The notes beneath the pieces are model-generated. The model was not told the origin of the DNA. It saw only the letters and a list, made by a program, of their open reading frames with translations, and did not search any database. Of a DNA stretch of 64,000 nucleotides, positions 49,883 to 56,167 are shown one piece after another (position 1 is the first letter of the stretch; each line of letters begins with the position of its first letter). Source of the DNA: Rhodobacteraceae bacterium EL53 (GTDB lineage: Bacteria > Pseudomonadota > Alphaproteobacteria > Rhodobacterales > Rhodobacteraceae). The stretch is from NCBI GenBank assembly GCA_900313015.1, contig OMPR01000009.1, positions 186,001-250,000 of the forward strand. The letters are read 5' to 3'. Made by a program: the position numbers and the translations under genes.

Positions 49883-49972
49883 GGACAGGTGGCCGAGTGG
49901 TCGAAGGCGCACGCCTGGAAAGTGTGTAGGCGGGAGACCGTCTCCAGGGTTCGAATCCCTGTCTGTCCGCCA
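49883..49972 (+). tRNA. tRNA-Ser (anticodon GGA)
   Basis: 90-base gene. The acceptor stem GGACAGG pairs with TCTGTCC (last pair G-T), discriminator G and encoded CCA at 49970-49972. The anticodon stem CACGC/GTGTG encloses loop CTGGAAA with anticodon GGA at 49917-49919. A long variable arm and the T-loop GGGTTCGAATCCC agree with serine tRNAs. It marks the boundary between host genes and the prophage region and is a possible phage attachment site. Confidence 0.97.
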
Positions 49973-52079: not shown

Positions 52080-53201
52080 TCAGGAGAAGCTGGGCTCAAC
52101 CGGCTGCACATGTCGTGCGATGGCCCAGATAAATGCCGCCATCTCGCGGGCGATCGCGGTGGTCACCACCGTTTGCGCTTTGCCGCGCGCGGCCAGCCGA
52201 CGATAGCGCGCACAGAGCCGGACCTGCGCTTTCCATGCAATGTCGCGCACCGCTTTGGGCAGGTCGTCTAGGCGGGCAAGATTGTCTGGGCCAACTGCCG
52301 CTTTGTGGCGGTATGTCCAAGCCCCTTCAATCAGAACCCGGCGCGCGTCCTTTGAGCCCGCCTTGGTGATGCCGCCTCTGGCTGTGCGGCCGCCACTGGA
52401 ATATTCTGATGGCACGAGACCGAGATAGCTCATCAATTCACGCGGTGTGTTGAACCGGCGCATATCACCGATTTCCGCAACAACCGTGACCGCTGTGACA
52501 AAGCTCACACCACGCATGGCCTGAATGGCCATCACAACGGGCGCCATGGTCCATTCCGGTATCAGATCCTGGATCTGACCTTCAATGCGCGCGAGCCTAT
52601 CCGCAGCATCATCGACCGCTGCAATGTACTCCTGCAGCACAATTTGGTGGGCCGGATGCTCAAAACGCTGCTTGGAAAGCCAAACACGATGTTTCTTGGT
52701 CCAGTTTCTGCCCGTCCGAAAGATCCGATCGTGTCGTAGAAGAAAGCCCGAAAGCTGTTGCCGCGCGCGTCTGAGGTTCTCCATGGCCGAGGTGCGCGCC
52801 CGTACCAGATCCCGCATGGCCTCGTGGCCCTCGTCCGGAACCCACACCGCTGTCAATTCACCTGCGCGGTGCAAACGGGCGAGCAAAACGGCATCACGCC
52901 GATCGGTCTTGACACGATCACCCGGTCGCGCGGGCGTCATCGAGGGCGCAACAAGCGTGCAATCATGCCCAATGTCAGTCAGGTGCCGATGAATGCCGTA
53001 TCCGCAAGGCCCGGCTTCATAGCAGAAATGCAACGTGGCGTGTCGTTTCGTGAGTTTGGTGACAAGCCGCCTGATCGCCTCGCGGCTGTTGGCGATTTCA
53101 CCAAGAAAGCGCACCTCGCCTCCACGCCCGTCTTCGGCAATCGCAACTGCAATCGTCTCTTTATGCACATCAAGTCCAACAAATGCTGTATTATCTCCCA
53201 T
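52080..53201 (-). CDS. IS110-family transposase
   Basis: 373-residue DEDD-type recombinase with RuvC-like N-domain: Asp in FVGLDVHKETIAVAI, Glu in CYEAGPCGYGIHRHL, and the acidic pair in VKTDRRDAVLLARLHRAGEL. The C-terminal Tnp_20 domain, with the catalytic serine, reads ELMSYLGLVPSEYSSGGRTARGGITKAGSKDARRVL (core LGLVPSEYSSGG). GGAG precedes ATG 53201. Intact and full length, so probably functional. It acts with a guide (bridge) RNA rather than terminal repeats; see the noncoding region downstream. Confidence 0.95.
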   Translation of the reverse strand: MGDNTAFVGLDVHKETIAVAIAEDGRGGEVRFLGEIANSREAIRRLVTKLTKRHATLHFCYEAGPCGYGIHRHLTDIGHDCTLVAPSMTPARPGDRVKTDRRDAVLLARLHRAGELTAVWVPDEGHEAMRDLVRARTSAMENLRRARQQLSGFLLRHDRIFRTGRNWTKKHRVWLSKQRFEHPAHQIVLQEYIAAVDDAADRLARIEGQIQDLIPEWTMAPVVMAIQAMRGVSFVTAVTVVAEIGDMRRFNTPRELMSYLGLVPSEYSSGGRTARGGITKAGSKDARRVLIEGAWTYRHKAAVGPDNLARLDDLPKAVRDIAWKAQVRLCARYRRLAARGKAQTVVTTAIAREMAAFIWAIARHVQPVEPSFS

Positions 53202-53525: not shown

Positions 53526-54791
53526 ATGACCCTGAGCTTTGCCCCAGACGCGATCGAGCAATGGCCGCTCGACCGCCTGAAACCCTATGCAAAGAATGCC
53601 AAAATGCATGGCGCGGACCAGGTTGCCAAGATCGCTGCCAGCATGGCCGAGTTCGGTTGGACCGTGCCGTGTCTGGTAGCGGATGATGGCGATCTGATTG
53701 CGGGCCACGGTCGGGTGCTGGCTGCCGAACGGCTGGGGCTCAAGGAAGCCCCGGTTATCGTGCTGGGGCATCTGTCGGATGAACAGCGCCGCGCCTACAG
53801 GATCGCCGACAACAAGCTGACGGAATTGGGAGAATGGAACGAGGTGGTTCTTTCCGGTGAACTGCAGTTGCTGGCATCGGAGGATTTCGACCTGTCGCTG
53901 ATCGGGTTTGACGATGGCGAATTGGACGCTCTTCTGTCCAGCCTTGATAACGAAACCGACGCAGAGGGCGAAGATGACATTCCCGAACCGCCCGAGGTTC
54001 CGATCAGCCGACCGGGCGACCTTTGGGTGCTTGGCAATCATCGCCTGCTTTGCGGTGACGCGACGGTGGCCACCGATGTCGAGCGGGTGCTGGGCAATGT
54101 GAAACCGTTGTTGATGATCACCGATCCGCCTTACGGGGTGGAATACGATCCCGGATGGCGCAGCCTAACGGGAGCTTCGACCACCAAGCGCACTGGCAAG
54201 GTGCTGAATGACGACCGCGCGGATTGGCGGGAGGCCTGGGCGCTGTTCCCTGGCGATGTGGCTTATGTCTGGCACGGGGCACTGCACGCAACCACCGTCG
54301 CCGAAAGCCTCGAGGCGGCCGGGTTCAATGTCCGCTCGCAGATCATCTGGGCCAAGGATCGGCTGGTGCTGAGCCGGGGCGATTACCATTGGCAACACGA
54401 GCCCTGCTGGTATGCCGTGAAAAAGACCGGCAATGGCCACTGGGCAGGTAATCGTAAACAGACGACGTTCTGGCAAATCGCCAACAAGGATCAGGACGCG
54501 GAAACCGTGCACGGCACGCAAAAGCCGGTCGAATGTATGCGTCGGCCGATTCTCAACAACTCAAGCCCCGGTCAGGCAATTTATGAGCCGTTCATGGGAT
54601 CGGGCACGACGCTGATCGCAGCCGAAACTACGGGGCGGGTGTGCCTCGGAATCGAGCTGAACCCGGCTTATGTCGATGTGGCCGTCAAGCGCTGGCAGCT
54701 GTTCACCGGTCAAGAGGCCGTTCTGAACGGGATCGGCGAAAGCTTCGCGAAAGTTGAGGCCAAGCGTTTGGCTGTGGCCCCGACATTGTAG
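53526..54791 (+). CDS. ParB-domain plus DNA methyltransferase fusion
   Basis: 421-residue phage protein. Residues about 10-110 are a ParB/Srx-like nuclease domain (LKPYAKNAKMHGADQVAKIA, LIAGHGRVLAAERLGL). The C-terminal part is an amino-methyltransferase of beta arrangement: DPPYGVEYDPGW (motif IV) precedes FMGSGTTLIAAE (motif I), with HGTQKPVECMRR and CLGIELNPAYVDVAVKRW. It methylates adenine or cytosine N4 in phage or host DNA, often as anti-restriction. Such fusions sit upstream of the terminase in many Rhodobacterales prophages. The ATG lies directly after the nested hairpin. Confidence 0.92.
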   Translation: MTLSFAPDAIEQWPLDRLKPYAKNAKMHGADQVAKIAASMAEFGWTVPCLVADDGDLIAGHGRVLAAERLGLKEAPVIVLGHLSDEQRRAYRIADNKLTELGEWNEVVLSGELQLLASEDFDLSLIGFDDGELDALLSSLDNETDAEGEDDIPEPPEVPISRPGDLWVLGNHRLLCGDATVATDVERVLGNVKPLLMITDPPYGVEYDPGWRSLTGASTTKRTGKVLNDDRADWREAWALFPGDVAYVWHGALHATTVAESLEAAGFNVRSQIIWAKDRLVLSRGDYHWQHEPCWYAVKKTGNGHWAGNRKQTTFWQIANKDQDAETVHGTQKPVECMRRPILNNSSPGQAIYEPFMGSGTTLIAAETTGRVCLGIELNPAYVDVAVKRWQLFTGQEAVLNGIGESFAKVEAKRLAVAPTL

Positions 54792-54829
54792 GGAACCGAC
54801 GGCGCAGTTTGACCGCATGAATGAAGAAA

Positions 54830-55543
54830 CTAGGCTGGGTGGCCATCTGGGCCGGGTGCAGCCCTTACCAGTAGAACCCTTTTCTTGCGACCCGTCCTGG
54901 TGACAAACACAACTTCTTCGGATCCGTCTTTGTTGACCACGTATTTTAACCGGTTGAGCGAAAATAGCTGACCATCGACGGAAACTTCTTTGTGATCACT
55001 GGACAGGGAGACATTGTTTAACTCGGTGTCCAGTCGGGCAAGGATCGTTTCTAAAGACTGGGCCTCTAGAAGCCGTACTTCCTTTACAATTTGAGCCAGA
55101 GTGATCGGCTCCAAGCCACCCTTTTCACGCTCTTCATTGAGGTGACGCATCGTCTTACGTGTGAAAAAGTACCCTAGTGTTGCGGCAAGGGTCGCCGCCG
55201 TTCCGGCGACAGCCCATCCGACGGGTGTGAGACCCAGGAAAGTTGCTGCTGGGGCAATTCCGAGCGTGCTGGCAACTCCGCCGAGACCGACTGCCGTGAG
55301 AGCTGAACCTACTCCAAGAGCAGCGCTCGAGGAGAATGCTGCCAGCCCGCCCGTGGCGCCGAATATCCCGGCAGCCGATACCAGACCAAGACTGCCGAGC
55401 AAGGTGCTATTCCCGAGGACAAATGCCCCGATCCATGTACTAGATAACGTGCCTGCGATATATCCCGCCGCTCCCGTGGAGGCGATCCAAGCGCCGGATG
55501 AGTGAATGACTGGAATGGCAATAGCGAGAAAAGGTAAAGGCAT
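54830..55543 (-). CDS. Unrecognised glycine-zipper-like membrane protein, lone cargo gene
   Basis: 237 residues on the strand opposite to its phage neighbours. Residues 1-128 are almost wholly Gly/Ala/Ser/Leu, with hydrophobic segments near 1-22, 25-45, 48-70, 72-98 and 102-127, a pattern of glycine-zipper or pore-forming membrane regions. The remaining 110 residues are charged: a coiled helix FFTRKTMRHLNEEREK, EVRLLEAQSLETILARLDTEL and a beta-rich end (VSVDGQLFSLNRLKYVVNKDGSEEVVFVTRTGRKKRVLLV). No family is recognised. Base composition looks lower in G+C than its neighbours. Position, orientation and isolation mark it as a phage moron, perhaps superinfection exclusion or cell-killing. The ribosome site is weak. 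Confidence 0.72.
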   Translation of the reverse strand: MPLPFLAIAIPVIHSSGAWIASTGAAGYIAGTLSSTWIGAFVLGNSTLLGSLGLVSAAGIFGATGGLAAFSSSAALGVGSALTAVGLGGVASTLGIAPAATFLGLTPVGWAVAGTAATLAATLGYFFTRKTMRHLNEEREKGGLEPITLAQIVKEVRLLEAQSLETILARLDTELNNVSLSSDHKEVSVDGQLFSLNRLKYVVNKDGSEEVVFVTRTGRKKRVLLVRAAPGPDGHPA

Positions 55544-55644
55544 TTGTTGGCTCTAAGGTCTGGCAATAGATGAAAGATAGGTATCCCCTGAGTTGCGTTC
55601 AAGTATTCGTGATCCATTCGGTCGAGAAGTCGGCACAAGCCTCG

Positions 55645-55925
55645 ATGAGGCGGCTATGGATGACGCCGGCGGCGCGCGATCACAAGGATGGGGCGACGAT
55701 TTTGGCGAACACGCCGGTGAACGGCCGGCTTGGCCGACAGCTGGGAGCGATACTTGCGAGCAGCGCCGGACGCTGAACCCAGCATTCGTCGAGGCTCTGA
55801 TGGGCTGGCCCACCGGGTGGACCGACTTCGGCTCTGTGGCAACGGCGTGTTCCCACTGGTTGCTGCGCATGCGCTCAGAACTCTGGCGGCTGAATTGCTG
55901 GCCGATGGATGAGGTGGCGACATGA
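55645..55925 (+). pseudogene. Frameshifted remnant of a phage DNA cytosine methyltransferase
   Basis: The frame from 55645 reads RRLWMTPAARDHKDGATILA and LGRQLGAILASSAGR, then stops; a frame one base away continues RTLNPAFVEALMGWPTGWTDF to 55925. Both halves match the C-terminal block of phage-encoded Dcm-like methyltransferases (TP-ARDHKDG ... LGRQ ... LNPxFVExLMGWPxGWT). A one-base slip near 55761-55770 separates them, and the catalytic N-terminal domain (PCQ motif) is absent. So the gene is truncated and frameshifted. Confidence 0.75.
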
Positions 55926-56167
55926 AGCAGTCGCGTATCATGTCGCTGATCGAGTCCGTCGCCAATGTGATCGTCGGTTACAGGGTTGCTGTACTGACGC
56001 AGATCCTGATCTTCCCGGGGTTTGGTTTGCAGGTGATGCTGGTGCAGAACCTGAAACTTGGCATGGTGTTTACCGTGCTGACTATCGTCAGATCGTTCAC
56101 GCTGCGTCGGGTTTTCGAGGCGATCAGGGTTCGTATGGGCAAACGGAAAACCGCCGCCCCAACGTAG
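55922..56167 (+). CDS. DUF7220-like small phage membrane protein
   Basis: 81 residues; the ATG overlaps the TGA of the methyltransferase remnant by the ATGA pattern. It begins MKQSRIMSLIESVANVIVGYRVAVLTQILIFPGFG and contains VFTVLTIVRSFTLRRVFEAIR, two hydrophobic helices. The SxxESxxNVxxGYxxA pattern is typical of small proteins (DUF7220) that follow phage cytosine methyltransferases. Function unknown. Confidence 0.75.
   Translation: MKQSRIMSLIESVANVIVGYRVAVLTQILIFPGFGLQVMLVQNLKLGMVFTVLTIVRSFTLRRVFEAIRVRMGKRKTAAPT

Follow-up and report, generated by a model that had tools for sequence, protein, structure and literature searches.

The reverse-strand gene at positions 54830-55543 of the window, the whole 64,000-nucleotide stretch of DNA analysed here (C15:186001-250000 of a 4.86 Mb genome), is well supported by comparative sequence evidence as a mobile cargo gene with its own predicted transcription unit. 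Its 237-residue product, a predicted polytopic inner-membrane protein, belongs to a family that in the collections searched is small, conserved and without known relatives. The explanation favoured here, tentatively, is that of a mobile accessory gene with an RpoH-type promoter whose product would act as a stress-triggered protective effector, most likely of the phage-exclusion or abortive type. A cargo gene carrying a heat-shock sigma factor promoter from site to site would tie the benefit of a prophage directly to the stress response of its host.

The reading frame was confirmed at the coordinates and on the strand reported in an earlier note on this DNA. The description given there, an unrecognised membrane protein, also held, in that the N-terminal module is hydrophobic and uncharged and that no convincing match was obtained from Pfam, NCBIfam, PHROGs (best E 0.087), PADLOC or the PDB, where the best sequence match (3hxj, E 0.015 across 24 residues) was judged to be due to chance. 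Carriers of the gene comprised eight loci in public genomes, five viral contigs (some of them identical records) and several further genomes. Among 395 genomes of the family (Rhodobacteraceae) 5 had the gene, as did 6 of 293 genomes of the order, all six belonging to that family. From a phylum-wide draw (n=349) the genome of the window alone was recovered, and a class-wide draw otherwise yielded only noise. Three class-level matches (G517, G729 and G739; E 5e-4 to 7e-3) consisted of short stretches with in-frame stops and were judged to be such noise. Searches of phage and plasmid collections gave zero matches, and broader queries against viral contigs gave no additional relatives.

The closest members shared 77-88% identity with the window's copy, L016 shared 70%, and L017, L018 and L020 shared 55-58%. 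Comparison with L012 gave a pN of 0.066 and a pS of 0.75, with pN at 0.044 in the N-terminal module versus 0.090 in the C-terminal domain. The occurrence of relatives in many genomes, together with a pN of 0.07 against a pS of 0.75, identifies a real protein gene under purifying selection and rules out a chance open reading frame. Decayed copies were found as well, L008 being frameshifted and L009 truncated at its 5' end.

The N-terminal module (residues 1-128; 55160-55543, reverse strand) is the most conserved part of the protein. It contains zero Asp, Glu, Lys or Arg and a single His, and its Gly and Ala content of 38% agrees with the earlier description of a Gly/Ala-rich region; the approximately five hydrophobic segments proposed there fit the hydropathy profile, with segment limits that are approximate. 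The probability that 128 residues would lack all four charged residues by chance is about 5e-16, given their usual combined frequency of 0.24. The first 128 residues were free of these residues in 9 of 12 members; the 125-residue module of L017 is likewise uncharged, and L018 and L020 each have one basic and no acidic residue. Invariant positions include H14-S15-S16-G17, W19, G27-Y28, T32-L33-S34, T36-W37, N45 and T101 to L103-G104.

The C-terminal domain (residues 129-237; 54833-55159, reverse strand) has 18 basic and 16 acidic residues among its 109. Since it is charged and begins with R129-K130, it is probably cytosolic according to the positive-inside rule. AlphaFold, run on shallow alignments, gave a pLDDT of 41 for the full-length protein and 68 for this domain, the latter as a low-confidence model of three helices followed by a beta meander of about five strands. 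Fold searches with these weak models gave best VIA Z scores of 4.0 (rmsd 3.7, 54 aligned) and 3.9 (rmsd 4.0, 88 aligned) and a best Foldseek E of 0.17. PH-like domains were listed for the full model and EF-P, CarD and Tudor-like small barrels for the C-terminal domain, none of them above background. The suggestion that the last 110 or so residues form a sensor-like domain could not be confirmed, the models being too weak and the fold searches having no match above background.

Chromosomal genes occupy the window to approximately 49.8 kb and are followed by a tRNA-Ser gene (49883-49972) and then by a prophage remnant. Within the remnant the order is a RuvC-like resolvase, an IS110 element, a ParB-N/N4-N6 methyltransferase, the membrane gene, DUF7220, DUF3489, the small and large terminase subunits, a lambda-type portal and a ClpP-like head protease. 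The IS110-type transposase gene (52080-53201, reverse strand) is an insertion that separates the methyltransferase from the region of the RuvC-like gene. A search for a repeat of the tRNA-Ser 3' end, extending from the tRNA to a point 18 kb past the end of the window, gave no second copy. The phage is considered incomplete because the IMG/VR contig that matches it has a length of only 13.5 kb and the genes beyond the window are of defence rather than phage type.

As the earlier note had stated, the membrane gene lies between an intact and a broken methyltransferase gene and is oriented against its neighbours. It is convergent with the intact ParB-N-like/N4-N6 DNA methyltransferase gene (53526-54791, forward strand) at a distance of 38 nt, and points away from the 3' remnant of a C5 cytosine methyltransferase gene (55652-55925, forward strand), the 5' two-thirds of which are missing. 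The next phage gene encodes the small DUF7220 protein (55922-56167, forward strand). The C5 methyltransferase gene, identified in related phages from sequence motifs, is intact in L050, L051 and L080, and the window's remnant shares 82-83% nucleotide identity with such intact genes (82.5% with L051). Related phages usually have an intact C5 methyltransferase gene, for approximately 350-430 residues, between those for the N4/N6 methyltransferase and DUF7220, and in some of them the two are only a few bases apart; most of these phages lack the membrane gene. The window instead carries the cargo gene and about 110 nt of upstream DNA in place of the 5' two-thirds of the C5 methyltransferase, so that the inserted cassette of gene and promoter extends approximately from the methyltransferase stop codon to the start of the remnant (54792-55651).

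Three phage lineages have three different junctions with C5 methyltransferase remnants. The remnant in L014 is longer than that of the window and begins elsewhere in the same type of gene (88-90%), and that in L012/L004 is mostly of another methyltransferase type (93% to L067), with some 45 nt in front that are similar to the type found in the window (74%). The cargo genes of the window and L012 are 88% identical, against 43% for the neighbouring methyltransferase and 51% for DUF3489. The remnant comparisons suggest that recombination carried the cassette from one methyltransferase context to another on at least one occasion. The gene resembles prophage morons, which likewise have their own promoter, sit amid phage genes on the opposite strand at varying phage positions and are absent from related phages. 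It differs from them in its RpoH-type promoter, in its additional occurrence as chromosomal single-gene cassettes and in belonging to a family with no known relatives.

Copies outside prophages were found at unrelated chromosomal sites: in the rplW-rplB interval of the S10 operon (L017/L025, L020/L027 and, as the N-terminal module alone, L037), between trmD and rimM (L003), near thyX (L005) and near an adenine deaminase-like gene (L016/L024), the names of the neighbouring genes being assigned from their sequences. The copy in L007 lies in a prophage head-tail region, as judged from its neighbours. The proposal that the gene is prophage cargo is consequently sustained by its absence from most related phages, the three junctions and the conserved promoter, and corrected by the chromosomal and S10 operon copies, which exclude a gene restricted to prophages.

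A predicted RpoH-type promoter element, CTTGAA-N16-CCTATCT, is located at -60 to -32 from the start codon (55575-55603, reverse strand). The combined RpoH1/RpoH2 consensus of S. meliloti (CTTGAA-N15-16-CCTATAT and CTTGCC-N15-16-CCTATCT; PMC4843759) is fitted at 13 of 13 positions, a score reached by 0 of 300 shuffles. Of 16 upstream regions, whose flanks are otherwise unrelated, 13 contained an element of the form CTTGA[ACT]-N16 followed by a C-rich heptamer, positioned at -58 to -70 relative to the start codon; the 16 include near-duplicates (L004/L012 and L006/L007), and counted as independent loci approximately 11 of 14 have the element. It is missing from L017 and L020, both inside the S10 operon, and from the truncated L009. 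Individual p-values were non-significant for L002, L005 and L008, which scored no better than shuffles, and the argument for a promoter is based on the position and spacing common to the members rather than on individual scores. By sequence, the element travels with the gene, and RpoH likely drives its transcription.

Genome-wide, the strict consensus occurred at a single site in 4.86 Mb, that of the window, and a relaxed motif occurred at 19 sites versus 4 with a reversed control. Genes downstream of the relaxed motif, named from their sequences, include rpoH (L209), Hsp20 (L203), a cold-shock protein (L204) and an RseP-like protease (L206). Not all heat-shock genes are captured by the motif, as groES of the same genome showed only a partial match. 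The agreement with the published consensus and the sites before rpoH and hsp20 are features shared with the alphaproteobacterial RpoH (sigma-32) regulon; known members of that regulon are chromosomal, whereas here the predicted promoter travels with a mobile gene.

In L006/L007 and L026 the membrane gene is followed, on its own strand, by a gene for a coiled-coil protein of 412-420 residues whose C-terminal part is a Zc3h12a-like NYN RNase domain (PF11977, E 1e-6 in L007). NYN RNase-like genes were located at L007:7016-8248, L026:7319-8551 and L044:3938-5167. Between L007 and L018/L026 the membrane proteins are 58% and the NYN proteins 63% identical, values that fit joint inheritance of the pair. 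Like the membrane gene, these coiled-coil NYN RNase genes are mobile; they are phage- or plasmid-borne and often occur without it (prophages L043/L044 and Pseudomonas plasmids), and none was found at the window locus or anywhere in the window's genome. The NYN genes have no RpoH-like element of their own. The association is accordingly a lead and not a rule, albeit one that makes the optional nuclease neighbour a concrete biochemical starting point. The coiled-coil NYN family is mobile in prophages and has distant relatives on Pseudomonas and Acinetobacter plasmids. In the L007 prophage region a T5orf172 (GIY-YIG-like) gene (L007:4707-5582) adjoins the cargo gene. At that place L043/L044 have the NYN gene and a radical-SAM-like gene instead, which points to a site among the head and tail genes where the cargo varies.

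Anti-phage activity of the membrane protein is plausible from its sequence context. A defence island (TmtA, Druantia-like, MkoA-like and type I restriction genes) lies approximately 10-20 kb downstream, non-adjacent and in one genome. Beyond the window (L212, C15:250001-268000), the prophage remnant is followed by a WYL regulator, a DruK-like nuclease and an MkoA-like helicase, and this region also contains a gene for a 1406-residue TmtA protein (PADLOC E 7e-254) and type I restriction HsdR gene fragments. Eight of the 12 members matched the PADLOC profile PDC-M09A weakly (best E 8.9e-5); the window's match was weak and partial (E 0.0025, residues 57-176), covering in part the low-complexity Gly/Ala region. 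Homology to PDC-M09A is thus not secure, and the NYN neighbours were not reported as PDC-M09 partners. In being a prophage-borne inner-membrane protein, the product may work like membrane superinfection-exclusion proteins (P22 SieA; Imm_superinfect, PF14373), a likeness in manner of action only, with no sequence match at threshold: the window had no PF14373 match and L020 was the only member with a hit, one below the curated cut-off (E 0.03, 14.7 bits versus 27.9).

The RpoH-type promoter argues for a stress-induced function, anti-phage or not. A protective membrane effector, probably acting in phage exclusion or abortive infection, is favoured because of the prophage and defence-island surroundings, the membrane nature of the protein and the optional nuclease partner. 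As a moron moving horizontally with its own RpoH-type promoter, the gene would be transcribed by RpoH RNA polymerase upon heat, oxidative or infection stress. The uncharged Gly/Ala-rich module of the polytopic inner-membrane protein would insert as packed hydrophobic helices and probably oligomerise, with the charged C-terminal domain remaining cytosolic as a regulatory or docking part that in two lineages may work with the NYN RNase encoded next door. The outcome would be a stress-triggered membrane effector protecting the lysogen or its population. Against this stand the several copies beside housekeeping genes and outside defence islands, the lack of a convincing defence-family match, and the missing NYN gene at the window locus and in its genome. 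A more far-reaching proposal would see here a novel kind of mobile immunity gene coupled to the heat-shock response, in which the promoter lets RpoH sense infection-induced stress, while the membrane effector of a single-gene cassette (sometimes with the NYN RNase) stops phage spread and the cassette spreads via phages by replacing methyltransferase genes; this broader proposal is considered quite unlikely. The main rival, somewhat unlikely in itself, is host-beneficial cargo unrelated to phages, namely a membrane protein protecting the envelope or protein quality under heat or singlet oxygen. The promoter and the chromosomal copies near rplW-rplB, trmD-rimM and thyX would suit such a role, as would the control of heat-shock and singlet-oxygen genes by RpoHI/RpoHII in R. 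sphaeroides (PMC3441632), whereas sporadic occurrence (5/395), repeated decay (L008 and L009) and phage carriage better suit a dispensable conflict gene.

That the element is an ordinary sigma-70 promoter, making the gene a constitutively expressed moron with no heat-shock link, appears unlikely. Alphaproteobacterial sigma-70 promoters are lax, and TTGAAC-N17-TATCTT in the window is also readable as a weak sigma-70 site, a reading helped by the low individual scores of L002, L005 and L008. However, the -10 part in other members (CCATGT, CCACAT or CCAAGT) is not TATNNT, yet the C before TTGA and the exact N16 are kept, and the uniqueness of the strict motif and the recovery of rpoH and hsp20 by the relaxed one also favour RpoH. 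A membrane toxin or pore former that is silent until stress, acting by itself or jointly with the RNase in a toxin pair, would account for the uncharged hydrophobic module and for the NYN neighbour in two lineages; it is improbable given that most copies have no partner gene, that no antitoxin-like neighbour is conserved and that the conserved polar and aromatic residues (H14, W19, Y28, W37 and N45) exceed the needs of a simple lytic peptide. Prophage location and hydrophobicity would also be expected of a structural, lysis or holin gene of this phage type, a very improbable identity for a gene that is missing from related phages, antisense to phage genes, equipped with its own promoter, present on chromosomes away from phages and matched in PHROGs at best with E 0.087.

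The copies in the S10 ribosomal operon exposed the rplW-rplB interval as an insertion site for varied cargo in Rhodobacteraceae, for which the papers searched gave no description. The stand-alone N-terminal module at this site (L037:1501-1977, approximately 158 residues, with no C-terminal domain) may be a functional short form or a decaying copy. The survey of the interval covered L162-L191, L025, L027 and L037; among 29 evaluable loci, rplW was not within 1.5 kb of rplB in 15 and was within that distance in 14, with gaps of 83-1306 nt, and the inserted open reading frames varied among genomes.
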